A stretch of 64,000 nt of DNA from Xanthomonas vesicatoria ATCC 35937 (GTDB lineage: Bacteria; Pseudomonadota; Gammaproteobacteria; Xanthomonadales; Xanthomonadaceae). Numbering within the stretch: the first letter of the stretch is position 1; each line of letters begins with the position of its first letter. Both the position numbers and the translations under genes were made by a program. Shown piece by piece: positions 5,738-62,594 of the stretch. Below the pieces are notes generated by a model. The model had not been told where the DNA came from, made no database searches, and worked only from the letters and a program-made list of their open reading frames with translations. The stretch spans positions 1,612,001 to 1,676,000 of the forward strand of contig NZ_CP018725.1 of NCBI RefSeq assembly GCF_001908725.1. The letters run 5' to 3'.

Positions 5738-6200
5738 AGGTGCGGGGATGCTCGTTGGATGACAACATACAAGACGCTTGGCGTGATGCTGGGTAGCTCC
5801 CGCATCGTACCGGCGGCGTTTATGCAAATGGACCTTCGCGATTCGCATTGGCGATGCACTGACTCGTGGGAGCGTTACATCTTCCTTGCGGCCTGCAAAT
5901 ATCAGGCAACAAAACCGAAGGCAGGCGGCGATACATCGGATCATCAGCGCTTAGGGACTCACCTGGCCTGATGCCCCAACATCGGGCAGCTTGCGCACGG
6001 TTGATTGCATTATCTATCTGGACTCAGCGCAATGCGCATTCCAAGCGCGCAATCAAAACTCAAAGGCCCGCAGCCCTAAAAGGGGCGTCCTACCGGGCGG
6101 TGGCTCCCGACGAAATGCGGCATGCATCAAACAAGCGACTACGCGGCTAACCGATGCGACTCGGATCAACTCCGCCATAAGCAACCCAACACGCAAAAAA
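5738..6200. other. intergenic stretch without a recognisable gene
   Basis: About 460 bp. Only short overlapping frames with no ribosome site and no family resemblance occur. Nothing further is seen. Confidence 0.5.
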
Positions 6201-49094: not shown

Positions 49095-49245
49095 GCGGAC
49101 ACATCCACCAGGCGCATCGCGCATGGGGATTACGTTTCGCACCCGTCCACCGCGATCTTCGCGCACAGGGATGACTTTTCGCACGCCGACGGGGGACCTC
49201 GCGCTGATAAGCTCGGGGTCCCCCTTGTCGTTGGAGCCGCCCTGC

Positions 49246-50664
49246 ATGCGTCGCCTCGCTGTTGCCATCTCTGCCCTGCTTGCCTGTTCCTCCGCGCTTG
49301 CGGCACAGACCACCATTGCCGACAGCGCGCTGCGTACCGCTGCGCAATTGCGCGAGCAGGCCCTGGCCGACAACACCGGCTTTGCAGTGGTGGAATCGCT
49401 CACCACCGAAGTGGGCCCGCGTATTGCCGGTGGCGACGCCGATCCGCGCGCGGTGGCCTGGGCCAAAGCCAAATTCCAGTCGTTGGGCTTCGACAAGGTG
49501 TGGACCGAGCCGGTGACCCTCCCCAAGTGGGAACGCCGTAGCGAACACGCCGCAGTCGTCGGCGCGCACGCGCAACCGTTGACCGTCACCGCCCTGGGCG
49601 GCAGCCCGGGCGGTAGCGTCGAAGGTGAGGTGGTGCGCTTCGAGAACCTGGCCGCACTGCAGGCCGCGCCTGCGGGGTCGCTGACCGGCAAGATCGCGTT
49701 TGTCGATTACCAGATGGTCAAGGCGCGCGACGGCAAGGACTACGGCAACGGCGGCGCGGTGCGCAGCAAGGCCCCATCGGAGGCGATTCGCAAGGGCGCG
49801 ATCGGCTTTGTGATGCGCTCGGCAGGCACCGATTCGCATCGCGTGCCGCATACCGGCATCACCCGGTTCGACGAAGGCCTGACGCCGGTACCCGCCGCCG
49901 CCTTGTCGGTACCCGATGCCAATCAGCTGGCACGTCTGGCCGCGTTGGGCACCACGCGTATCCGGCTGGCGCTGGATTGCGGATGGGATGGCACCGCGAC
50001 CTCGTACAACGTGATCGGCGAGATCACCGGGCGCAGCAAGCCCAAGGAAATGGTGGTGATCGGCGGACATCTGGATTCGTGGGATCTGGGCACCGGTGCA
50101 ATCGACGATGGCGCTGGCGTGGCCATCACCATGGCCGCCGGGCATCTGATCGGCCAGCTCAAGCAGGCGCCCAAGCGCACCATCCGCGTCATTGCGTTCG
50201 CCAACGAAGAACAAGGGCTCTACGGCGGCAAGGCCTATGCCGCCGCGCACGGCAAGGATGCCAAGGACATGGCGCTGCATCAGATCGGCGCCGAGAGCGA
50301 CTTTGGTGCGGGCCGTATCTACGCGTTCAACACCGGCTCTGCAGCGCCGGATGCCTCGCGCGCGGCGACCAAGCAGATTGCCGGCGTGCTGGCACCGCTG
50401 GGCATCGAGTATGCGCCGAGTAAGGGCGGCCCCGGCCCGGACGTGGGCCCGATCTCGGCCAAGGGTGGTGCGTGGGCGTGGCTGGCGCAAGACGGCACCG
50501 ACTACTTCGACCTGCACCACACCGCCGACGACACGCTGGACAAGATCGACCCGAAGGCGCTCGCGCAGAACGTTGCCGCCTACACCGTGTTTGCGTATCT
50601 GGCAGCCGAAGCCGATGGCGATTTCGGCAGCCGTGCCAAGTCCGTGCAACCGCCGAACGAGTAA
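49246..50664 (+). CDS. secreted M28-family zinc peptidase
   Basis: A 472-residue exported aminopeptidase-like enzyme. Signal peptide MRRLAVAISALLACSSALAA. Zinc ligands and catalytic residues: GGHLDSWDLG near residue 273, IDDGAGVA (bridging Asp), NEEQGLYGG near 319 (catalytic Glu) and a later ESDFG. A PA-domain-like insertion (GKIAFVDYQM) precedes them. The frame opens at 49123, but only the start at 49246 gives a signal peptide. Probably periplasmic or secreted, releasing N-terminal amino acids or dipeptides. Confidence 0.88.
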   Translation: MRRLAVAISALLACSSALAAQTTIADSALRTAAQLREQALADNTGFAVVESLTTEVGPRIAGGDADPRAVAWAKAKFQSLGFDKVWTEPVTLPKWERRSEHAAVVGAHAQPLTVTALGGSPGGSVEGEVVRFENLAALQAAPAGSLTGKIAFVDYQMVKARDGKDYGNGGAVRSKAPSEAIRKGAIGFVMRSAGTDSHRVPHTGITRFDEGLTPVPAAALSVPDANQLARLAALGTTRIRLALDCGWDGTATSYNVIGEITGRSKPKEMVVIGGHLDSWDLGTGAIDDGAGVAITMAAGHLIGQLKQAPKRTIRVIAFANEEQGLYGGKAYAAAHGKDAKDMALHQIGAESDFGAGRIYAFNTGSAAPDASRAATKQIAGVLAPLGIEYAPSKGGPGPDVGPISAKGGAWAWLAQDGTDYFDLHHTADDTLDKIDPKALAQNVAAYTVFAYLAAEADGDFGSRAKSVQPPNE

Positions 50665-50716
50665 TCTGGCAACGCAGCGCTGCGAATGCGTTTTTACTCC
50701 AGGACGAGCACACACG

Positions 50717-51769
50717 ATGGCGGTCAAGCGGCAACGTAGTGCGAATACCGCGGCCACGTTGCTGGACGTCGCCAAACATGCGGGCGTCTCGCCGATGACC
50801 GCCTCGCGCGTGATCAACCGGCACCCGCATGTCGGCCAGGACATGCGGGTGCGCGTGGAAGCCTCGGTGCAGGCCTTGGGTTACCGGCCCAATCTTGCCG
50901 GCCGCTCGCTGCGCACCAGCGGCCTGTTGCGCATCGGCGTGTTGTACAGCAACCCCAGCGCCGCTTACCTCAATCAATTCATGCTCGGGCTGCTCGAACA
51001 GAGCAGCCTCAACGGCAGCCAGGTGCTGGTGGAAAAGTGCGGCGCCATCCGCAGCCAGCGCGCCGCGACGGAGCGCTTGCTGGCCGCCGGCGTGGATGGG
51101 GTGATCCTGCCACCGCCGTTGTGCGATTCGCGCCAGACCATCAGCGAACTGGATGCGCGCGGCATCCCGGTGGTGGCGGTGGCCAGCGGCGCACCGATGG
51201 CGCAAATCAGCTCGGTCCGCATTGATGACTACCAGGCCGCGCGCGCCATCGTCGCGCATCTGATCGAACTTGGGCACCGCCGCATCGCGCTGATCAAGGG
51301 CGACCCCAAACACACACCGAGTGCGCTGCGCGCCAACGGCTATCTCGACAGCCTGCAGGCTGCAGGATTGGCGATTGCAGAGAACCTGATCGCCGAGGGA
51401 CTGTTTACGTATCACTCCGGGCTACTCGCTGCGCGCAGCCTGCTGGCCCAACCTACGCCACCGACCGCCATTTTCTGCAGCAACGACGACATGGCGGCCG
51501 CCGCAGTTGCGGTTGCGCACGGACTGGGCCTGCGCGTGCCCGAGGATGTCTCAGTGGCCGGCTTCGACGACACGCCGGTGGCCACCACCATCTGGCCCGA
51601 ACTTACCACCGTGCATCAACCGGTCGCCGCGATGGGACGCGCGGCAGTGTCGTTGCTGGCAGATGCGATTCGCCAGCGCCGCAAGGGCGATGCCGCACAG
51701 GGCGTGCATCAGGTGATGAAGTACACCGTGGTCAAGCGCGGCTCGACGGCAGCGCCGCCCAAGGAGTGA
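50717..51769 (+). CDS. LacI/GalR-family transcription regulator
   Basis: A 350-residue repressor. The N-terminal HTH and hinge read ATLLDVAKHAGVSPMTASRV and LGYRPNLAGRSLRT; the sugar-binding domain carries TAIFCSNDDMAAAAVAVAHG and VAGFDDTPVATTIWP. It follows the peptidase gene by about 50 bp and converges on the P450 gene. A LacI-type palindrome lies 11 kb away at 62595; whether it is the target is unknown. Confidence 0.92.
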   Translation: MAVKRQRSANTAATLLDVAKHAGVSPMTASRVINRHPHVGQDMRVRVEASVQALGYRPNLAGRSLRTSGLLRIGVLYSNPSAAYLNQFMLGLLEQSSLNGSQVLVEKCGAIRSQRAATERLLAAGVDGVILPPPLCDSRQTISELDARGIPVVAVASGAPMAQISSVRIDDYQAARAIVAHLIELGHRRIALIKGDPKHTPSALRANGYLDSLQAAGLAIAENLIAEGLFTYHSGLLAARSLLAQPTPPTAIFCSNDDMAAAAVAVAHGLGLRVPEDVSVAGFDDTPVATTIWPELTTVHQPVAAMGRAAVSLLADAIRQRRKGDAAQGVHQVMKYTVVKRGSTAAPPKE

Positions 51770-51921
51770 TGCGTTGACGCACCAGCGTGCAGCGAATTGG
51801 TTGAGCCTGGATGCCGTGGAAGTGTGCGCCTGCGATGGGCGACACGGTCATTCGCACTGTCTACCGACGCCGATGCAGCCCACTCGCCGCCGCATGCACG
51901 CAGGTCAGCAAGCTGCATCCA

Positions 51922-52962
51922 CTAACCACGCACGACATCGACCTGAGAGACCCCGAGCAATCCAGCCAACGGTACCTGTGCCTGGCGCTGCCGCGGGCTG
52001 ACGGTCGCTCCCTGATTGCGCAGGATATCCAGCAACTGTTCCGCCAGGGGCATCACCATGTGCCGGCCCCAACAGCGCTCCGACACGTGACCGAACGGGA
52101 AATACCCAGACTGATGATCCGGATCCAGCTGATTCCAGCGCTGTGGGCGAAATTCATCCGGTGCGTCCCACAGCGCAGGGTCGCGATGGCTCAGCAGCGG
52201 CAGCACCAATACATCGTCTTGCGCGCCGATACGGGTATCGAGTAGCGGATACTCCGGCGATGCGTTGCGCAGGATATTCCAGGATGGCGGCAGCAGACGC
52301 AGCGACTCGTAGACGATCGTGCGGCTGGAAATGTCCGGATCGAACGGTGCTCCAAGCCACAGTGCGTTGGCGACCAAGGTGGAAATCGTGAAGCACACCG
52401 GCGCGGCGGTTCTTCGATACAACCCCATGGCGAAGCGACGTGCATCGTAGCCGTCTGCTGCGGCAGTCACTGCCGCAAGTGCCGACGCGTTGGGTTGCAG
52501 CGCAAGCGGTCTCACTGCACCGGCCGCGATGAGTGCCCAGGTCAGCTTGGGCGTCAGCTCCAGGATGCGGTCCATCAACATGCGCAACCGCAGCGGGTCG
52601 CCACCCAGCAGCAGATCGCGCAAATAGGCGTGCCCCACATGCGGCCACGAGCCGGTCAGATCCACGTCTACCGGGATGGGACGCTTCAATGCCTCGCGCA
52701 CATCGCGCCCGATTGCCTGCATCAGCTTGGACGCGTGCGTGCGAGCAATCGATCGCCCCTGCAGCGGCTTGAAGGTCGGCCGCTCGGCTTCGGTCGCAGG
52801 ACGCGCAGCGAGCAAACGATGCGTCATTAGAGGGCCGGCAACACCGACGGTATCTCCATCCAGTCGAAAGACGTCCTTGCCTCTATGCTCGCGCAGCAGC
52901 GCCAGCAAACGCGGCGCGAAAACAGTCGCCCGGCCCAAGTCAGCGCTAGTGGATAGAGACAT
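51922..52962 (-). CDS. short cytochrome P450, proposed peptide-crosslinking enzyme
   Basis: A 346-residue P450, shorter than the usual about 400. The heme loop is FGHVSERCWG with ligand Cys297, the K-helix ExxR is ESLR (219-222) followed by LLPPSW, and the PERF-like element is EFRPQRW. In the I-helix the usual (A/G)Gx(D/E)T is replaced by AAPVC (about 186-190), so the acid-alcohol pair for O2 activation is absent. No membrane anchor. The gene begins 116 bp downstream of a tiny gene whose product ends SYSWYIWY, same strand. P450s of atropopeptide and biarylitide pathways crosslink aromatic residues in such cores. Function inferred from context; no redox partner is encoded nearby. Confidence 0.85.
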   Translation of the reverse strand: MSLSTSADLGRATVFAPRLLALLREHRGKDVFRLDGDTVGVAGPLMTHRLLAARPATEAERPTFKPLQGRSIARTHASKLMQAIGRDVREALKRPIPVDVDLTGSWPHVGHAYLRDLLLGGDPLRLRMLMDRILELTPKLTWALIAAGAVRPLALQPNASALAAVTAAADGYDARRFAMGLYRRTAAPVCFTISTLVANALWLGAPFDPDISSRTIVYESLRLLPPSWNILRNASPEYPLLDTRIGAQDDVLVLPLLSHRDPALWDAPDEFRPQRWNQLDPDHQSGYFPFGHVSERCWGRHMVMPLAEQLLDILRNQGATVSPRQRQAQVPLAGLLGVSQVDVVRG

Positions 52963-53078
52963 CAGGATCGCTCTGCGCTCGTGACGCCCGCGTCCGGCAA
53001 AATGCTTGCCTCGCGCGGGCGGGCATGACCAATATCACACGACACACAAGGCGGTTTCGGCCGCGCTTGCCGGCGTGC

Positions 53079-53159
53079 TCAGTACCAGATGTACCAGGAG
53101 TAGGACTTCAGACTTTTCTTGGAAGCCAACAGATTCTTCAGCGAGAACAGCATCTTCAT
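53079..53159 (-). CDS. 26-residue RiPP precursor candidate with WYIWY core
   Basis: The frame read from 53159 gives MKMLFSLKNLLASKK.. and ends SYSWYIWY then TGA. ATG 53159 has AGGA eight bases upstream; ATG 53168 would add MSL but has no spacing from that site. The first about 18 residues are Lys/Leu-rich like a leader. The end is aromatic and hydrophobic with no follower. The last five residues equal those of tryptorubin A (AWYIWY), a P450-made atropopeptide. The gene lies directly upstream of a P450 on the same strand. A peptide this short would be missed by most gene callers. Confidence 0.8.
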   Translation of the reverse strand: MKMLFSLKNLLASKKSLKSYSWYIWY

Positions 53160-53168
53160 GAGCGACAT

Positions 53169-53508
53169 CCTGTTTGGGGAGTGGTTTGGTGCGCCCTGAT
53201 GGGCATTCGCACAATCGGTGACGCGTGACGCGAGCGGCCATGGTCGCGCTCGCCAAACCAAGCTACGCCTAGCGATCAGCCAGGAACCTTGCGAGCGCGC
53301 ACAGATTCGTCACCCTGCAGCAACCGCATTGCCGCAATACGCGCTTTCACGTACATGACTTCGCACTCAGTACAAACGACCATGGCGGCCAGATTGCCGC
53401 CATGGGTTCAACGCGCCATCGGGTCATCACAACGATGGGTGTCGTCGCCGCCACCTGTGCCGTCCGCGACGGATGGACACCGGCCTCGCCGGTATCCATC
53501 CGGCCGCA
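53169..53508. other. gap upstream of the peptide gene, with a hairpin behind cbsA
   Basis: No gene. It must hold the minus-strand promoter of the peptide/P450 pair. At 53470-53502, just after the cbsA stop, CGGATGGACACCGGC, CTC loop and GCCGGTATCCATCCG form a 15-bp stem with one mismatch. A second imperfect stem (CCATGGCGGC, one bulge) lies at 53379-53406. Either could end the cbsA message before the peptide gene. Confidence 0.6.
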
Positions 53509-55200
53509 TCACTCGACCGGCTTGGCACGCACGACAGCCGATGGCGTACTGCTCCCGGCCATGCTGTTCACTGTCACCACGTAGTCGTAGTCCGCGCCAT
53601 TGGTGACGGACCGATCGACATACGATGCGGCAACGCTTGAACCAACTGGCGTAAATGCACCCGTGACACCTGCGCGACGCTGCACCGTGTAGCTGATTGC
53701 CCCCGGCACCGGCGACCAGCTCAGCTTGACTTGGCTATTGCCAACAGTGGCAGTGAGGCCGCGCGTCGCGCTCGGCACCGCGGCCGGTGCACGCAGTGCG
53801 GCCGTGGCCACTGCAGTGCCTGCGGTTGCGATCACCGGGTACGCGTTGTTCACCAGCTCGACAAACTGATTGTGGAACCAGGCACCGGAGATTGGCGCGC
53901 CGGCCAGCGCGCCGGTCAACACGCCATCGGCCGTAGTGTAGGTCGGGTCGCACATCCGGTCGAAGCCTTTACCCTCGTTGTTGGAAATGAGGGTGCTGGA
54001 GCCATCGGATTCGCCCGGCGGCTTGACCCACGCATACGCATGAAGATGCGGTCCCGGCGCTGCGGTGGGGAGCGCACCAATCCCTGCCCCGCTCTGATTG
54101 CACCAGTTGCCACGATGCAGGCGACGATCAATGCGGCCGGTATTGACGTAGGTATTGATGTCGCTCCCGGACGCGCCGGCCGGACGATTCGGTCCGCCCC
54201 ACCCGTTACGACCAGTATCGATGATGAAACCGATCGTGCTGGGCCAGCCCGCGCCGACAAACCCGTTGTACAAGGCTTGGGTAAAATCGGTCTCGTCGAA
54301 ATACGGGTTCCATTCGTAGTATTTCGACGATTTGATCGGCTGCCCGTTCACGCTCAACTCGGGGTTGGGCAAATTGGGCTCGTTCAAGGGCGTGGTATTG
54401 GCGGTATTGGTCACAAAGCCATCCACGCTTGCCAGCCCCGCGCTTGTTCCCTGTACCACGCGGGTATACAGCGAAATCGACGGGCCGCGGTTGCTATCCC
54501 AGCCCAACCAGCCAGAATGACCGATATCCAGGTAGTTGTAGGTGTTTGGAACAGCATGCAGTTTATTCAGCGCGTACTTGATGCCTTCCTCGTAAATGCC
54601 CGTGGAGTTGGCCAGCGCGCAACGCATGTCATTCAAATTGGTGACCAGGTTCGGCAGGCTATCGGGCTCAATCACATTGACGATGCGGATATCCTTGTAC
54701 TTGGGATCCGCAAAAATCGCCGCAATGACGTCGATATATTCTTTCTTGTAGCGCTCCAGCGCCGCCGGGGTCAGCGGCAATTCGCCATTGGATGCCAACG
54801 CGTGACAATCGCGGCCCGGTAGATCGTAGATGACGAAGCTGGCGGTGATCGGCGTATTGGCTTTTTTCTGTGCCAATGCGGCATCCAGATGGCCTCTCAG
54901 ACCGAGCCGCCCGGCATTTTGCGACCCTCCGGAAATCGCGGCAATGCGATCCAGCCAGACCGCGGTGGGAAAGGTCTTCACCACGCCCATCTTGGCCTTC
55001 AACGGCACACCTTTCACCTTTGCAATCGATGCGTCGACTTTCTTGGCGTAATCGGGATTGATATACCCACTTGCGCCGACAAAAGGATTATCGACGTGAA
55101 CCTGCGCACAGACGCTCGCGACGACTAACGGATTTACAGCCAGCAGCGATAACGCCACCTTGCGCGTGAGGGTGCAACGGATGCCCTTACTGGATTTCAT
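53509..55200 (-). CDS. cbsA: secreted GH6 cellobiohydrolase CbsA with fibronectin type III domain
   Basis: A 563-residue exported enzyme. MKSSKGIRCTLTRKVALSLL starts a signal peptide cleaved near VCA. The GH6 domain covers about 35-450: TASFVIYDLPGRDCHALASN, IVNVIEPDSLPNL, YLDIGHSGWLGWD, GFIIDTGRNGWGG and WVKPPGESDG. The C-terminal about 90 residues are a fibronectin type III module (VKLSWSPVPGAISYTVQRR). GH6 enzymes release cellobiose from chain ends. The GH6 plus FnIII build is that of Xanthomonas CbsA, a type II secreted virulence factor of vascular strains. The ATG at 55200 is used; the longer frame has no signal peptide. Confidence 0.9.
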   Translation of the reverse strand: MKSSKGIRCTLTRKVALSLLAVNPLVVASVCAQVHVDNPFVGASGYINPDYAKKVDASIAKVKGVPLKAKMGVVKTFPTAVWLDRIAAISGGSQNAGRLGLRGHLDAALAQKKANTPITASFVIYDLPGRDCHALASNGELPLTPAALERYKKEYIDVIAAIFADPKYKDIRIVNVIEPDSLPNLVTNLNDMRCALANSTGIYEEGIKYALNKLHAVPNTYNYLDIGHSGWLGWDSNRGPSISLYTRVVQGTSAGLASVDGFVTNTANTTPLNEPNLPNPELSVNGQPIKSSKYYEWNPYFDETDFTQALYNGFVGAGWPSTIGFIIDTGRNGWGGPNRPAGASGSDINTYVNTGRIDRRLHRGNWCNQSGAGIGALPTAAPGPHLHAYAWVKPPGESDGSSTLISNNEGKGFDRMCDPTYTTADGVLTGALAGAPISGAWFHNQFVELVNNAYPVIATAGTAVATAALRAPAAVPSATRGLTATVGNSQVKLSWSPVPGAISYTVQRRAGVTGAFTPVGSSVAASYVDRSVTNGADYDYVVTVNSMAGSSTPSAVVRAKPVE

Positions 55201-55699
55201 GAGATTCACCTTGGTTGATCGAAGGGTGGTTATGCGGAAATCGATGAAGCGCTGCCTCTTTGGCCTGCTTTCTTCCTCTTCAGGGCACCCGATAGAGATG
55301 TCTTGAGCCACCCAAACACGCCCCGTCGGCGTCCCGCCGAAGAGCATTTGCATGGCATAACGTCGGCAATATCTGCACAGACACGCAAGCCAATGGCCTG
55401 TGTGTGTCCCGAGACATGACCTAAGAACCAAGATTCATTGAAGGCCAATGCGGCCGCATCGACGTTATCGTCGCAACGGTTGCCTTCGTGAGATGCGGAG
55501 TATCTCCAGGGAGCGATTGAGCGATCAGCGTGGATGCTGTGCCTGCGAACGGAGGTGGTGAGTTCGCCCTGCGGAAACTACGCCGCATAACTGGCATAAG
55601 CAATCGTCAAACATTGCGGTTGGGCACAGATCCAGCTAATGCCCGCAACGGCATTTCAGCAGCAGGCATTACTGCACAAATGTATGTGGCATCACGCAC
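55201..55699. other. upstream region of cbsA
   Basis: About 500 bp without a gene. It contains the perfect palindrome ATGCGGCCGCAT at 55448-55459. I see no convincing Clp (CRP-type) site or PIP box. Confidence 0.45.
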
Positions 55700-55736
55700 A
55701 AAAAAACGGCCGCATCGCTTCCCGACGATGCAGCCG
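55700..55736 (-). terminator. rho-independent terminator after the TonB-dependent receptor
   Basis: On the minus strand CGGCTGCATCG, 8-base loop, CGATGCGGCCG (one G-U pair) and seven T, about 170 bp beyond the receptor stop. Confidence 0.85.
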
Positions 55737-55902
55737 AATGGGAGGGTGCCCGACGTTGCGGTCGGGCGTCGTGCAGCACCGGCACGCCGGTGACGGGAAG
55801 AAAGCGAAATGACCGCTTGGAGAGGGACAACAGAAGATCATGCGCGACACGACGCGGGGGTGCGCCGTGTCGCACATCGGTACATCACATCAGCCCATGA
55901 CA

Positions 55903-58839
55903 TCAAAAGCGCAGACGCAGACCGGCGTAGTAACGACGCTCGAAGATGTTTTGATCGTAGTAGTGGTTGGTCCACTGCGCGTAGCGCCGCTCGCTTTCAC
56001 CGGTGAGGTTGGTGGCCTGGGCGTAGAGCGTCAGATGATCGTTGACGTCGTAGCTGAAGGAGGCATCCAGATAGCCGACGTCGTCGTTCCAGATGGCCAG
56101 CTCATCGCCCCACGCACCGCTATTGACCTGACTGAAGCGCTTGCTGCGCCAGTTGTAGGCCACACGCGCCTGCAACTTGTCCTTTTGATACCACAGCACC
56201 GCATTGGCCTGGTGCTTGGAGTTGTCGCCGATTGGAAGCGTGTTGCCTTCGATATCGGTGTTGTCGGTATCGGCATCGGAGAAGGTGTAATTGATGTTGG
56301 TACCAAACCCGCTCAGCCAACCGGGCAGGAAATCGAAGGCTTGCTGATAGCCGATTTCGAAGCCCTTGATCTTGCCGCCACCGCCATTGACGATGCGCTC
56401 CACCGGGCCGCCAAGTCGCACCACGCCATCGGCATCGGGCTGCGGCTCGATGTTGGTCACTGTGGTGGGGAACGACTTCACGTCGATCAGGAACGCGCCT
56501 ACGCTGACCAACGACGCATCGGAGAAATACCATTCCCACGACGCGTTATAGTTTGTGGCGCGATACGGATCCAGATCCGGGTTACCAGAGCGGCCATTGA
56601 GGAACAGCACCGCATCGGAGGGCAGCGCGGGGTTACGCGGTGGTGTGCCATTGACCGCGTAGAAGCTCACCAGACCGCGACCGAGATCAGGCAGGTCCTG
56701 ACGCGCCACCGCCTTGTTGTAGGCAAAGCGCAGTTTCTGCGCATCGGTGATATCCAGCGACAGGTTGGCGGTAGGCAACACGTCGGTGTATTGGCGATTC
56801 AGACGGTTGGTGCCAATCGCCGGGCTGACGCCGTTCCATTCAACATTGCCGATAAACACATTGCCGCTGCTCAGGTATTGATCGATCGCCAGCTTGGTCT
56901 GCACGATGCGTGCGCCGATATTGGCCGTCCACGGCACCGCACTACCGGTACCGCCTTCAAGATTTGCCAGGAAATAGGCTGCGGTGCTTTTTTCGGTGAC
57001 CTTGTACGAATCGGCAGCTTGCTGGTAAGCCACGTTGCCCGGATACAGACTGTTGAGATACGCCACCGGGTCTTTCATGACCTGCGGGTTGATTGCCGGC
57101 AGCCCCTGGCTACCCAGGCCGGTGACCTTGAGCGGATCGAAGTCGTTGAAGTACGCCCAGTAACCGGGAATGGAATTGAACGGCAGCAGGCGCGCTTCGG
57201 ACACGCCGCTGCAGGTGTCGGAAATCAGCGGGTCCTTGAAGTAATACAGCGAGCGGTTGGGGTCTGCGCAGGTAGTCGACACCGGCGACAGATAGCGATA
57301 GGTATCCAGCTTGACCTCGCGCTCGCCATAGCGGATACCGAACTGGAAGCCGCGCACCACGCCTTCGTCAAACTCGAAGGTGCCATCGGCGCGGAACGCA
57401 TCCATCGTCGCTTCGATCTTGTTGCCCTGCGCCCAGGTGGACATCAGCTGCCAGTTGTCCGGGTTAGAGACATCGGTGCCCAGGTTGACCGCGGGGTAGG
57501 TGCCGCGGAAATCCACCGAAGCGTCCACCGTGGGCAGGCCATTGGCGTTTGCCCATTGGGTGACGCCGCCGGCCCGCGTGATCTGATCGCCACGTGTCAC
57601 CACCGCATCCGCGCGCGCTTCGTCATAGGTGCGCTGCGCATCGCCATGCACCCAGCGGAACGACGCACGGAACGGGCCGCCGTCATCGAAACGCAACTCC
57701 AAGTTGGTGTTGAGCGAATCCGAATCGGCCACGCCGGCCATCGAGTGCGCCTGGAAGCGGTTATAGCGAAACTGGCCGTAGTCGAGCACGCCGTTGGAAT
57801 CGACCACCGAGCCCGGCTGCAACTGATTGGTGGCCCAACCGGTATGCAGCTGCGCGGCCACCGAGGTGTCCTGGTCTTCAAGCTTGGTGTAGGCCGCATC
57901 GGCCAGCACCGTCCAGGAGTCGTTGATGTTGAACTGGAACGAGCCGTTGACGCCGGTGCGCTGGCGGTCGGTGCTGCGGTTATCCAGTTCGGTGGCGACC
58001 CAGTTGTAGAAATAGTCGCGCGGCAGGTTGCTCGGGTCGGTATTGCTGCCGATGCGGCCATCGCCATTGAAGTCGAAGCCGACGTTCTGTTCGGTCGATT
58101 TCTGCGCGCCGTTGGAATACACGCTGGGGTGCTTGTTTTCCAGCGTGGCGTCCGAGTACGACACCGCCAGCGAGGCGCCCCAGCGCTCGGTGCGGAAGCT
58201 GGCCAGCCCCGAATACAGCTCGTTGAGTTCCTGCACGCGGTCGCCGTAGGAACCCTCGGCCTGGCCACTGAAGGTCCAGCCTTCAGGCAGATCGAATGGG
58301 CGGCGTGTCTTGAGCGACACCGTGCCGCTGATGCCGCCATCCAGGTCGGCGGCGGTGGGCGACTTGATCACGTCCACACCGCTGAACAGCGTCGGCGGGA
58401 TGTCGACAAAATCCGGTTGCGCGCGGCCGATGTTCGGTTGGCCGAACTGGTCGCCGCCACCGGCGCTCAGATACAACTCGCCGTTCATCGTGGTCTGCAC
58501 CTGCGGCATGCCGCGGATGTTGAGCTGCGAACCCTCGCCGGCCGAGCGCCGGATCTGCACGCCAGGCACGCGCTGCAGCGAATCGGTGATGGTGACGTCG
58601 GGCAGCTTGCCGATGTCTTCGGCGGAAATCGAGTCGATGATCTGCGCGGCGGTGCGCTTGTTTTCGATGGCCTCGGCCTGCGCGCCGCGCACGCCCTTGA
58701 CCATGACCTTGTCCAACTCGGTGACGCCGGCGGTGTTGCCGGCTTCCTGCGCTGCGGCAGTTGCCGCGACCAGTGTGAGTGCAGCCGCCAGCGCGGCGGC
58801 CAGCGGGGTGTGACGCGTACTGCGATGCAGCTTGTTCAT
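55903..58839 (-). CDS. TonB-dependent outer-membrane receptor
   Basis: A 978-residue receptor. MNKLHRSTRHTPLAAALAAA is a signal peptide. A TonB-box-like segment (ELDKVMVKG) is followed by the plug (IIDSISAEDIGKLPDVTITD; LQRVPGVQIRRSAGEGSQLN; IRGMPQVQTTMNG). The rest is the 22-strand barrel ending in Phe (GLRLRF). The type with long plug and SISAEDIGKLPD is the one that in Xanthomonas often imports plant-derived carbohydrates beside glycoside hydrolases. Here GH2 and GH97 genes are upstream and a GH6 gene downstream, which fits sugar uptake. The start at 58839 is chosen for the signal peptide. Confidence 0.92.
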   Translation of the reverse strand: MNKLHRSTRHTPLAAALAAALTLVAATAAAQEAGNTAGVTELDKVMVKGVRGAQAEAIENKRTAAQIIDSISAEDIGKLPDVTITDSLQRVPGVQIRRSAGEGSQLNIRGMPQVQTTMNGELYLSAGGGDQFGQPNIGRAQPDFVDIPPTLFSGVDVIKSPTAADLDGGISGTVSLKTRRPFDLPEGWTFSGQAEGSYGDRVQELNELYSGLASFRTERWGASLAVSYSDATLENKHPSVYSNGAQKSTEQNVGFDFNGDGRIGSNTDPSNLPRDYFYNWVATELDNRSTDRQRTGVNGSFQFNINDSWTVLADAAYTKLEDQDTSVAAQLHTGWATNQLQPGSVVDSNGVLDYGQFRYNRFQAHSMAGVADSDSLNTNLELRFDDGGPFRASFRWVHGDAQRTYDEARADAVVTRGDQITRAGGVTQWANANGLPTVDASVDFRGTYPAVNLGTDVSNPDNWQLMSTWAQGNKIEATMDAFRADGTFEFDEGVVRGFQFGIRYGEREVKLDTYRYLSPVSTTCADPNRSLYYFKDPLISDTCSGVSEARLLPFNSIPGYWAYFNDFDPLKVTGLGSQGLPAINPQVMKDPVAYLNSLYPGNVAYQQAADSYKVTEKSTAAYFLANLEGGTGSAVPWTANIGARIVQTKLAIDQYLSSGNVFIGNVEWNGVSPAIGTNRLNRQYTDVLPTANLSLDITDAQKLRFAYNKAVARQDLPDLGRGLVSFYAVNGTPPRNPALPSDAVLFLNGRSGNPDLDPYRATNYNASWEWYFSDASLVSVGAFLIDVKSFPTTVTNIEPQPDADGVVRLGGPVERIVNGGGGKIKGFEIGYQQAFDFLPGWLSGFGTNINYTFSDADTDNTDIEGNTLPIGDNSKHQANAVLWYQKDKLQARVAYNWRSKRFSQVNSGAWGDELAIWNDDVGYLDASFSYDVNDHLTLYAQATNLTGESERRYAQWTNHYYDQNIFERRYYAGLRLRF

Positions 58840-58940
58840 GGTCCCCTCCCAGGGATGACGACAATCCACGACCGTTTCGAATGGCAATGCCGGGGGGCAA
58901 TGCAGGAATGGCTGACGCGCCGATCGGTGCGTCAGTGCAG

Positions 58941-58962
58941 ACGCCGTGCACGTGCACGGCGT
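58941..58962. repeat. perfect 22-bp palindrome between GH2 and receptor genes
   Basis: ACGCCGTGCAC joined directly to its reverse complement, 18 bp after the GH2 stop and about 100 bp before the receptor start. It may fold in the message as a transcript-protecting or terminating hairpin, or bind a dimeric regulator. Confidence 0.75.
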
Positions 58963-58980
58963 GGCAACTTGCTGGTGTCG

Positions 58981-61900
58981 CTATGGAAGCCCGTTGGCAG
59001 CGCCGGTTGATGGTTCGACATTCCAGCCACGTACTTGCAACGTGGCGTTGCGCAGGGTGTCCGCAGACGGTCCACGGATGTCCACCTCGCGCTGCTCGCC
59101 TGGCACCAGGCTCAGATAGTTGTCGCTGTAGTACGCCGGCAGGATGCGTTGGCCTTGCGCATCCACCAGGGTCAACTTGGTATTGAGTGCCATCTGTTGC
59201 GATGCATTGCGCACGCTGACGCGCAACACTGGCTCGGCAGCGTCCTGTACTTGCGTGGTGAGTTGCACCGGTACCTTGGCCAACGCATCCAGCCCGCGCA
59301 TGGCGGCGGCGTCGCGTGCCACCCAATAGAAGTTGCGCGAGCGCACCACCGCGTCGCGGTCGAGCAATTGCAGGCGCACAAAGCCCAGGCCATTGGTGTC
59401 CTTGAGCAAGGGTGCCAACCGCAGCACCGGCGCAGAGACCGCAACGGCGGCCGCATCCAGCGCCTGTTCGCGCTGCTGCAGCAACGTGCCGTCGCTGCCG
59501 TAGACCTCGGCACGCACGCGCAAGCCGCGTACCGGCCGGGCTGCGTTATTGACCACCACCACCTCGTGACCCGGCAGATTCATCTGCACATGCAAGGTCT
59601 CCGCCGCATTGCGCACGCCGTAGTAAGCGGCGTGGGTGTCGTAATCGTGGCTGTAGATCTGCCACATGTTGCTGGGCCACGCCGGGTGGCTCATCCACAA
59701 CAAACGCCCGCTATTCTTGGTCCACAACTGCGCATTGAAGCCTTCGAAAATTGCGCGGTGGGTGTCGTAGTTGAGCAACTGCGCCTTGCGTTCGAAATCA
59801 GCCAGGCTGGCCGGTGCGCCCAGCTTGTCGGTGAGCGAACGCATGAAGCTGGCGGTGTCGCCATTACCGGACTGATGCCAGTCGTGGTACGCCCAGGCAT
59901 CGCTGATCGGCCACTGGTCGCCGGCGGCCGGCACCGATGCCTTGAATGACTCCAGCGTGGAGAACGACGGCGTGCCCACTTCCACCGAAAAGCCCTGCGC
60001 CAACGCATTGAAATAGGCCACCGGCTCGCGGTAGTTGTACGGCCCGCTGCCCTGCAGATTGACCTCGTTGGAACTGCCGGTATACCAGCGCGTGCCATCG
60101 AGCTCGGCGATGAGTCTGTCCAGCCCTTCGTTGAGGATGGGAGCAGGTACGCCTTCGTTACGCCCGAACCACAACACGATGGACGGATGATTGCGGAAGC
60201 GCTTGATCACCTCGGCCGCGTTGTCCAAAAATAAGGCTGCATCGGCCGGCTCCATGTTGTAGTTCTGGGTGGACTGCCAGAAGTCGTTGAGCACCAACAT
60301 GCCGTATTCGTCGGCAAGATCGAAGAAGCTGGCTTCGGTGTTCTGCCCCACCCAGTTGCGCACCACGTTGAAATGCGCGTCCCGTTGCAAGCGGAAGTAC
60401 GGCTCCAGTCGTTCGCGCGATACGCGCTTGCGCCAGTCGTCCATGCCCCAGTTGCCGCCCTTGACTGCAATGCGCACGCCATTGATGCGCAGCACCAGAT
60501 GCGGCGCCAAAGCGGTGTCTTGCAGTTGCTGCACCGCCGGCGAGGCCAATGCGCCCGGATACAACGATTGCGCCTTACCGCCTGGTACCGCACGGATCGC
60601 CTCATGCCGTACATCGACGATGCGCTCGCCACGTTGCCGCGCCTGGTTGAGATCGACCAGCACCCGGCGCAGCGCGCCATCATCGTCGAACAGGGACAAC
60701 TCGTAGGTCACCTCGCGAATGCCGAAGCGCAGCTGCTGCGCATCCGATCGCGTGCCGGCCACATCGACGCCAACCTGCAGCGCATACAGCGCCGGCTCGC
60801 CATAGCCGTTGGGCCACCACAAACGCGGATTGGCGATGACCAGCTGCGGCGTGTCGGCCGCGGTGAGCTTGAGCGTGCTGCCGCCAGCAGGCACGTTGAC
60901 CTGGCGCTGGATACGCACCTCGCCGATGGCCAGTTGCACCGTTCCCTGCACGGCAGCGCCGCTAGCGTTGTGCAACGGCACGGTGACTTCGAGTTCGGCA
61001 CGGCGGTGGTCCGGCGCCAGGCGCGCAGTCACCACCTGGGTATCGCCGATCGTTACCGGGCCGGTGGCGTGCAGCTGCACGTCCTGCCACAGACCGGCAT
61101 TGCGATCGCGTACTGCCGGGATCCAGTCCCAGCCTTCGCTGGCGATAAACGCCGGCCCGTCCAGTGCTTGCATACCGCCGTTTTCGCCGACGCCCGCCGT
61201 CATCGATTGCTCATGCGCAGTGCCCGGATGCGGCGGCGGCGACACGCGCACCGCAACGACATTGCGGCCGGCTCTCAGTTGCTTGCTGACATCGAAGCGG
61301 CCACGTGCGAATGCACCGCGGGTCTGTCCGACCTGGGTACCGTTGACCCAGATTTCGCCGGCATAGTTGATGCCGTTGAACAGCAACTCCAGCCGCTTGC
61401 CTTGCGCAGCGGCAGGTAGGTCGAAACTGCTGCGGTACCACCAGTCGTGCCGGCTCAGCGATTCGGGAATGGCCATGTTATTGAGGCCGATATCCGGGTC
61501 CGGATACACGCCGCGATCGACCAGCGTGGTGAGCACCGTGCCCGGCACCGTCGCCACACGCCAGGCCGCACTCCCGGCGGTCGCATCGCCGCGCGACAGC
61601 GTCGCTCCCGTGGCTTGCCCAAGTTCCGGCGCGGCGGCCAACTGCCACGCACCGACGCGCCATGCTGCATCGTCCAAGGGCTGCAATGCAGGCGCGGCCT
61701 GCACCGGCTTGGCAACCGGTGCGGAGAATGCGGCGGCGCTGCGCGGCAAGCTGGCTGCGGCCTGCGGCGCCAACTGGCCCGCCATCTGCTTCACCTGCAC
61801 CGGCCAGGCCGGCGATGCGTCTTCAAAACGTTGTAGCGATGAATCCGGCGCCCGCGTTGCGAGCTGCGCAATGGCCGCTGTCTCCAACGCGCCGGATCGC

Positions 61901-62451
61901 GCGACGAAGTCGGCAATCTCGCCACCGAAGTGCTGCGTGTACGCCGCAGGTTGCTCGCGCGGACCGAACATCAGCACCGGCGTCGTCACCACTTGACGCA
62001 CTGCACCACTGGCGACCTGGCGCCCATTGGCATACAGCGTCAAACGGCCACCTTGTGCCACCGCAGCCATGTGCGTCCACGTGCCGGGTGGCAGCGGCTG
62101 CTTGCTGCGCAACACGGTGTCGGCGCCCTGCACAAAGCCAAGCTTGCCGTTATCGATCGCAAAGTAGCGGCCAGCATCGTGCGGAGCGCCGATGCCGGCA
62201 ATCAACGCTGCACCGGTCGTTGCACGCGATGGACGCACCCAGCCCGACACGCTCCAGTCTGCGTTGGCGGCGAGCAACGGCGTATCGGCGGCGAACTTCT
62301 TGGCCAATCCCATCCCGCCCGCAAGCACGCGGACATCGTAAGGGCCTGGCGGGGCCATCTCGGCAGGCGCAGCCTCCACTGCGGTCCAACCGAGGCAACC
62401 ACACAACAACCACAGCGCTCCACGGCGGAACGCCTTGCGAACCATCAGCAT
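58981..62451 (-). CDS. GH2-family exo-glycosidase (mannosidase/glucosaminidase type) with LamG-like front domain
   Basis: An exported enzyme of 1156 residues. MLMVRKAFRRGALWLLCGCL is the signal peptide (cleavage near VEA). Residues about 35-200 form a LamG/concanavalin-like domain (ADWSVSGWVRPSRATTG; TWTHMAAVAQGGRLTLYANG). Then come the GH2 sugar-binding domain (YAGEIWVNGTQVGQTRGAF), the Ig-like domain and the TIM barrel. The acid/base is Glu766 in WFGRNEGVP and the likely nucleophile is Glu824 in FSVEVGTPS. The GRNE form suggests the exo-mannosidase/exo-glucosaminidase branch, not beta-galactosidase. ATG 62451 follows GGGAGAGG. Divergent from GH97; probably acts in the periplasm on imported oligosaccharides. 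Confidence 0.85.
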   Translation of the reverse strand: MLMVRKAFRRGALWLLCGCLGWTAVEAAPAEMAPPGPYDVRVLAGGMGLAKKFAADTPLLAANADWSVSGWVRPSRATTGAALIAGIGAPHDAGRYFAIDNGKLGFVQGADTVLRSKQPLPPGTWTHMAAVAQGGRLTLYANGRQVASGAVRQVVTTPVLMFGPREQPAAYTQHFGGEIADFVARSGALETAAIAQLATRAPDSSLQRFEDASPAWPVQVKQMAGQLAPQAAASLPRSAAAFSAPVAKPVQAAPALQPLDDAAWRVGAWQLAAAPELGQATGATLSRGDATAGSAAWRVATVPGTVLTTLVDRGVYPDPDIGLNNMAIPESLSRHDWWYRSSFDLPAAAQGKRLELLFNGINYAGEIWVNGTQVGQTRGAFARGRFDVSKQLRAGRNVVAVRVSPPPHPGTAHEQSMTAGVGENGGMQALDGPAFIASEGWDWIPAVRDRNAGLWQDVQLHATGPVTIGDTQVVTARLAPDHRRAELEVTVPLHNASGAAVQGTVQLAIGEVRIQRQVNVPAGGSTLKLTAADTPQLVIANPRLWWPNGYGEPALYALQVGVDVAGTRSDAQQLRFGIREVTYELSLFDDDGALRRVLVDLNQARQRGERIVDVRHEAIRAVPGGKAQSLYPGALASPAVQQLQDTALAPHLVLRINGVRIAVKGGNWGMDDWRKRVSRERLEPYFRLQRDAHFNVVRNWVGQNTEASFFDLADEYGMLVLNDFWQSTQNYNMEPADAALFLDNAAEVIKRFRNHPSIVLWFGRNEGVPAPILNEGLDRLIAELDGTRWYTGSSNEVNLQGSGPYNYREPVAYFNALAQGFSVEVGTPSFSTLESFKASVPAAGDQWPISDAWAYHDWHQSGNGDTASFMRSLTDKLGAPASLADFERKAQLLNYDTHRAIFEGFNAQLWTKNSGRLLWMSHPAWPSNMWQIYSHDYDTHAAYYGVRNAAETLHVQMNLPGHEVVVVNNAARPVRGLRVRAEVYGSDGTLLQQREQALDAAAVAVSAPVLRLAPLLKDTNGLGFVRLQLLDRDAVVRSRNFYWVARDAAAMRGLDALAKVPVQLTTQVQDAAEPVLRVSVRNASQQMALNTKLTLVDAQGQRILPAYYSDNYLSLVPGEQREVDIRGPSADTLRNATLQVRGWNVEPSTGAANGLP

Positions 62452-62594
62452 TAGAGGCCTCTCCCAAGCTCTACTGCCACACAACGGTGCACACCACATC
62501 GACGCAAGCGGCGTCATATCCAGCGGACATGACGCAGTCGTATTCAGTGATGCCGCCCGTGGCTGCCGCCCCTGTTTCAGCGGCCATGGTGCGA

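Follow-up and report, generated by a model that had tools for sequence, protein, structure and literature searches.

A probable minimal atropopeptide gene pair in Xanthomonas vesicatoria

Atropopeptides and the Xanthomonas locus

The atropopeptides were redefined in 2024 by three features, namely their kind of cytochrome P450 (P450), a KSLK motif and a tryptophan at core position 2, and it is the KSLK motif that sets them apart from the biarylitides (PMC11450843). This AtropoFinder survey places KSLK at residues 17-20 of its precursors, names Streptomyces, Xanthomonas and related genera as the main holders, and points out xWxxYx cores for several Xanthomonas. A second paper reports that ScaB modified five of seven precursors, given in its text as Pseudomonadota (PMC12352619); the X-named ones are probably from Xanthomonas. 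Here we describe a 64,000-nucleotide stretch of X. vesicatoria ATCC 35937 (G000:C1:1612001-1676000, G000 being the genome that holds it), hereafter the window, in which a tiny precursor gene and a P450 gene on the minus strand very probably form a minimal atropopeptide gene pair, the P450 of which would crosslink the core SWYIWY into a peptide of the tryptorubin A/B type. The reading rests on the two genes, their motifs, a family match, P450 kinship, co-occurrence, purifying selection and a predicted P450 fold. A first-pass annotation of the window had proposed such a two-gene locus, and the family model, motifs, P450 kinship and conservation bear it out. Its statement that these clusters were described mainly in actinobacteria overstates the novelty: the survey ranks Xanthomonas as a main genus, and antiSMASH 8.0 includes an atropopeptide rule. 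Xanthomonas is thus not new as an atropopeptide host.

The precursor and its P450

The 26-residue product of the minus-strand frame 53159-53079 is MKMLFSLKNLLASKKSLKSYSWYIWY. The frame begins with ATG, preceded by AGGA as ribosome site at 8 nt, and ends in SYSWYIWY and a stop; the P450 gene starts 116 bp farther on, and the coordinates agree with the first-pass annotation. KSLK lies at residues 15-18, and tryptophan occupies position 2 of the core SWYIWY, as it does in 74 of 75 related loci. The precursor matches NCBIfam NF038372 (tryptorubin family) over its full length at 47.3 bits (cut-off 33, E 1.8e-12); in a genome-wide search it scores 44.6 bits, and that search returned zero matches among its 14 control genomes. 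An alternative upstream ATG (MSLMKM...) would lengthen the precursor; because this ATG is absent from three relatives (L007, L008, L010), the 26-residue start appears the better choice.

In the P450, E219-x-x-R222 and Cys297, which we take to be the ExxR motif and the haem ligand, are unchanged in all 81 aligned P450 proteins, and these residues together with the predicted fold place the window protein in the P450 superfamily. An early structure model from 11 sequences, with a predicted local distance difference test (pLDDT) value of 51.3, was discarded. A scan of GTDB genome contigs, from which the best 80 of 85 P450 relatives were kept, gave 79 loci with P450s 53-92% identical to that of the window; the named relatives at 88-92% are all Xanthomonas. 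Among the relatives is Streptomyces sp. MMG1121, which the AtropoFinder survey names (PMC11450843). In a tree of the 81 proteins, made by a quick method and with no outgroup, the 16 Pseudomonadota rows form one side of a branch (Shimodaira-Hasegawa-like approximate likelihood ratio test, SH-aLRT, 94), and the P450s of the window and of MMG1121 fall in one starred 68-row group.

A KSLK-type precursor with a tryptophan-bearing tail lies upstream of the P450 at 75 of the 79 loci; none was found upstream at L104, L119, L123 or L129, the last being without its 5' part. The last six residues of the 75 precursors read AWYIWY (21), AWYLWY (20), AWYFWY (13), SWYIWY, AWYHWY and AWYGWI (5 each) or otherwise (6), and the aromatic tail is kept at the amino acid level across two phyla. 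At L134 (Xanthomonas sp. GPE 39) two precursor frames, with cores SWPHWY and AWEGYISY, stand before one P450, upstream of position 5971.

Within the genus, the P450 (identity at least 74%) is present in 12 of 35 genomes and the precursor (E at most 0.001) in 11 of 35, ten of them above the cut-off and all of them P450 carriers. The first-pass annotation would have fallen had the frame been lost while the P450 was kept; with the precursor in 11 of the 12 carriers, this check came out in its favour. The one carrier in which no precursor is found, G026, is without a counterpart of about 52519-53261, a loss that took the precursor and the P450 5' part together. WxxY cores, the type that the survey points out for Xanthomonas, occur in two congeneric precursors, SWGLYM (L009) and AWSNYM (L012). 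Of wider samples of 398 genomes each, the one from the order gave 16 with matches and the one from the phylum a single genome, the window's own. Pooled over ten Xanthomonas copies, the ratio of nonsynonymous to synonymous substitution rates (dN/dS) of the precursor is 0.116, which indicates purifying selection. This set leaves aside L004 (a near copy), L009 and L012 (another core), L134 (length), L095 (another genus), L071 and L074, and two of its members, L006 and L008, adjoin a broken P450. Because of the whole-length NF038372 match, the lack of any control-genome match, the like frames at 75 of 79 P450 relatives and a dN/dS of about 0.12, the precursor frame is confirmed, at the level of sequence, as more than chance, in agreement with the first-pass annotation.

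Several points weigh against the atropopeptide assignment. Pfam scores the window P450 over residues 216-304 only, and the closest match in a sequence search of solved structures has E 2.7e-10. No redox partner or exporter was seen within the gene pair, the rest of the genome not having been searched for one. Atropopeptides are predicted in numbers for Pseudomonadota, and PMC12352619 knows of none reported as of 2025. Finally, three of the 12 carriers within the genus have an interrupted P450, with a TAG in L006 and frame breaks in L008 and L012, while G026 keeps about half of it and G008, outside the 12, only 38 residues; because of these interrupted and partial copies the pathway is to be regarded as often dispensable. 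The precursor frame is whole in the three congeneric genomes with an interrupted P450 (L006/L059, L008/L131, L012).

A proposed pathway and its alternatives

By analogy with the studied Actinomycetota members, the ribosome would make the 26-residue precursor, and its Lys/Leu-rich leader with KSLK would dock on the P450, threading the C-terminal SWYIWY into the active site. The P450 would then link aromatic side chains, Trp to Trp and Trp to Tyr, and possibly Trp to a backbone nitrogen. A general cellular protease would cut off the leader, perhaps with Ser1, releasing, in crosslinked form, a tryptorubin A/B-like peptide of five or six residues. The same analogy suggests that the cell does produce a crosslinked WYIWY peptide, as the first-pass annotation supposed.

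The outcome might instead be a single crosslink, a scabrirubin-like WxxW monocycle rather than the tryptorubin bicycle, despite the same core letters; this is a minority possibility to be taken seriously. ScaB sets just one bridge on WYIWY (PMC12352619), and among the varsorubins one P450 acting on the same core yields products with three modifications and with one (PMC11450843). Against this, LauA with LauB1 gives tryptorubin B (PMC11450843), and the starred group of the window P450 also takes in the P450 of MMG1121, a strain with a cluster similar to lau. Core letters and P450 kinship do not decide between one bridge and the bicycle.

It is rather unlikely that the locus is a silent or decaying relic with intact genes no longer in use. 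The P450 is absent from 23 of the 35 genomes, G008 with its remnant among them, and damaged or incomplete in four of the 12 others, and no sigma-70-like promoter was found in 51700-53600 by a scan limited to that promoter type; against decay, both window frames are intact and purifying selection is strong over the ten copies, L006 and L008 with their broken P450s included. That the small frame is a chance open reading frame (ORF), or an upstream leader peptide controlling a P450 with another substrate, is hardly credible: its small size, its place directly upstream of the P450 and the attenuator-like hairpin between them would suit such a role, but the aromatic tail is conserved as amino acids in two phyla, at least once a core type tracks a P450 group (all five loci with AWYGWI make up one starred group), and products have been isolated that derive from similar frames in Streptomyces and Embleya (PMC11450843).

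A hairpin between the two genes

The gap between precursor and P450 measures 49-227 nt across the 75 loci (median 110) and is unusually well folded. At least as good a fold as the best 5% of its own dinucleotide shuffles (100 each) is found for 60 of the 75 gaps (median z -3.10). Among 118 control gaps, taken at the same loci between ORFs of like direction, 22 fold that well (median z -0.28 with 60 shuffles each); the two sets differ at a Mann-Whitney p of 8e-19, with kinship uncorrected and ORFs crudely called. Equal lengths just upstream of the precursor fold well in 13 of 75 cases, and those at the P450 gene start in 5 of 75. In 18 chosen sequences, from which the structure was itself derived (eight Xanthomonas including the window, eight Streptomyces, Luteibacter and Burkholderia), 94.4% of 195 stem cells pair. 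Double changes occur in five of 11 stem pairs, a number matched by 11 of 500 shuffles, and the covariation score of 0.323 was reached in none of 500 (slid versions 0.009-0.178). Because G-U cells outnumber A-C cells (17 to 4) and the covariance model R1 scores the window, a training sequence, higher in the operon sense (50.4 bits) than on the opposite strand (22.6), the strand kept within this set is apparently that of the operon RNA.

Tentatively, we propose from these observations that the operon RNA carries an ancient hairpin, preserved through compensatory changes between Xanthomonas and Streptomyces, and that this hairpin makes the cell produce far less P450 than precursor. Such a conserved dosage control would be undescribed in the literature searched. 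The hairpin would thereby keep the P450 scarcer than its substrate, and could do so by attenuation, by protection of the 3' end of the precursor mRNA, or by weak P450 translation. When a ribosome site was added before one Streptomyces P450, the yield rose 100-fold (PMC11450843), which fits a low native P450 translation. If functional, the hairpin would help heterologous production. No account of gap structure was met in the literature searched, which covers few subscription papers, and "hairpin", "stem-loop", "terminator" and "intergenic" are absent from the main texts of the main atropopeptide papers.

Other results count against the hairpin. Folding is weak in the gaps of L075 (z -0.7), L062 and L065 (both -0.9) and wanting in L114 (1.2) and L118 (0.4). 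R1 generalises weakly: across 61 of the 64 loci not used in building it (L067, L129 and L131 omitted) it gave 34 rows at E at most 5, the best 0.0015, of which 20 lie between precursor and P450 (13 loci, including L104, where no precursor was found) and 14 elsewhere (11 loci). The opposite strand scores better in five of those 13 loci (L113, L096, L108, L076, L124), which argues against taking the operon strand as the one kept at every locus and weakens the dosage proposal. In the genus, with 150 candidates scored per genome, R1 reaches E 0.001 in seven of 35 genomes, fewer than the 11 with the precursor.

An ordinary U-tract terminator was rejected, since none of the 75 gaps has a T-run after its last predicted stem and a pattern scan of the gap lists no terminator-like site; at least five T within some 8-nt window are present in 18 of the 75. 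A genomic repeat was likewise rejected, as G000 has no second match to the 116-bp gap. Rfam gave a single chance match to a repeat of the clustered regularly interspaced short palindromic repeats (CRISPR) type, below the gathering score.

Neighbouring genes and history of the locus

The features are collected in Table 1. The conserved neighbourhood from 49123 to 62517 comprises an M28 peptidase, a LacI-type regulator, a GH6 glycosidase, a TonB-dependent receptor and a GH2 enzyme, and may serve plant-polysaccharide use.

Table 1. Features of the gene pair and its surroundings in the window
Feature	Position	Strand	Remarks
Precursor gene, atropopeptide (tryptorubin-family)	53159-53079	minus	26 codons; leader residues 1-14, KSLK 15-18, SY, predicted core SWYIWY 21-26, no follower
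Cytochrome P450, probably of the atropopeptide kind	52962-51922	minus	346 residues; PF00067, E 1.6e-13
Hairpin in gap (predicted)	52984..53022	minus	8-bp lower stem CGCCCGCG/CGCGGGCG, 5-bp upper stem in the window
LacI-type regulator	50738..51769	plus	conserved neighbour, outside the pair
M28 peptidase	49123..50664	plus	PF04389, E 1.2e-26; neighbour with or without P450
GH6 glycosidase	53509..55431	minus	neighbour, outside the pair
Block missing as one piece in G014	51816..53272 (approximate ends)		from alignment; spans P450, gap, precursor and precursor 5' region

The pair is flanked by the LacI gene on one side and a GH6 or TonB-receptor gene on the other in all 12 congeneric carriers, counting the window. 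In deeper Xanthomonas the LacI and M28 genes likewise adjoin it at L062 and L065, and the LacI gene at L134. One old insertion followed by many losses may account for this pattern, a later gain in some lineages being also possible. Transfer between the two phyla, of which the survey notes indications (PMC11450843), is neither shown nor excluded by the smaller set here.

In G008 (L154, 3123-3584) the 38-residue C-terminal P450 remnant slightly overlaps a piece of the TonB-receptor gene. In G029 (L151, 3046-10072) the LacI/GH6 gap contains some 7 kb with an integrase-type frame (HTH_38; rve below cut-off), presumably IS30-like, together with a YadA-stalk adhesin piece, an EAL-domain frame and an extra copy of the LacI 3' end.

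Proteases often accompany atropopeptide P450s in Xanthomonas, with a possible role in maturation (PMC11450843). At the window locus the M28 peptidase, with an N-terminus that by eye resembles a signal peptide, was considered as a cluster member and rejected. Its gene stands beside LacI at all 30 LacI orthologue loci, 13 with a P450 piece and 17 without any, and likewise in each of the 29 wider regions; the LacI orthologue was not found in five of the 35 genus genomes (G002, G007, G011, G022, G032). Because it is resident regardless of the P450, the peptidase looks like a bystander, and its association lends no support to a maturation role. The survey may mean other proteases; a protease gene near a Xanthomonas atropopeptide P450 may be unrelated to maturation.

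Comparison with known systems

Biarylitides and other cyptides resemble the window locus in that a small ribosomal peptide has its aromatic residues crosslinked by a P450. The precursors of the biarylitides have five residues, whereas that of the window has 26. The best NCBIfam match of the window P450 is the aminopyruvatide P450 ApyO (NF050147, residues 214-317), yet its 71.8 bits are far below the cut-off of 525.

The window locus has all three features by which the atropopeptides were redefined. With tryptorubin A/B, amyxirubin, varsorubin, laurentirubin and scabrirubin it shares two genes, a short precursor, KSLK, tryptophan 2 and a related P450, and with LauA/tryptorubin B the core letters WYIWY; unlike the studied members, it comes from Pseudomonadota and its product is a predicted one. 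Core residue 1 is serine in the window and alanine in tryptorubin A (N-terminal alanine according to the text of PMC11450843). The Xanthomonas loci of the survey are alike in host genus and in having precursor and P450, but xWxxYx cores were noted for several of them (PMC11450843), whereas that of the window is xWxxWx. Since a tryptorubin-type locus is known in Xanthomonas, the window locus adds one more member, perhaps already in the survey's list, and a Xanthomonas pair with the letters of tryptorubin is a good candidate for comparing the P450s of two phyla on one core.
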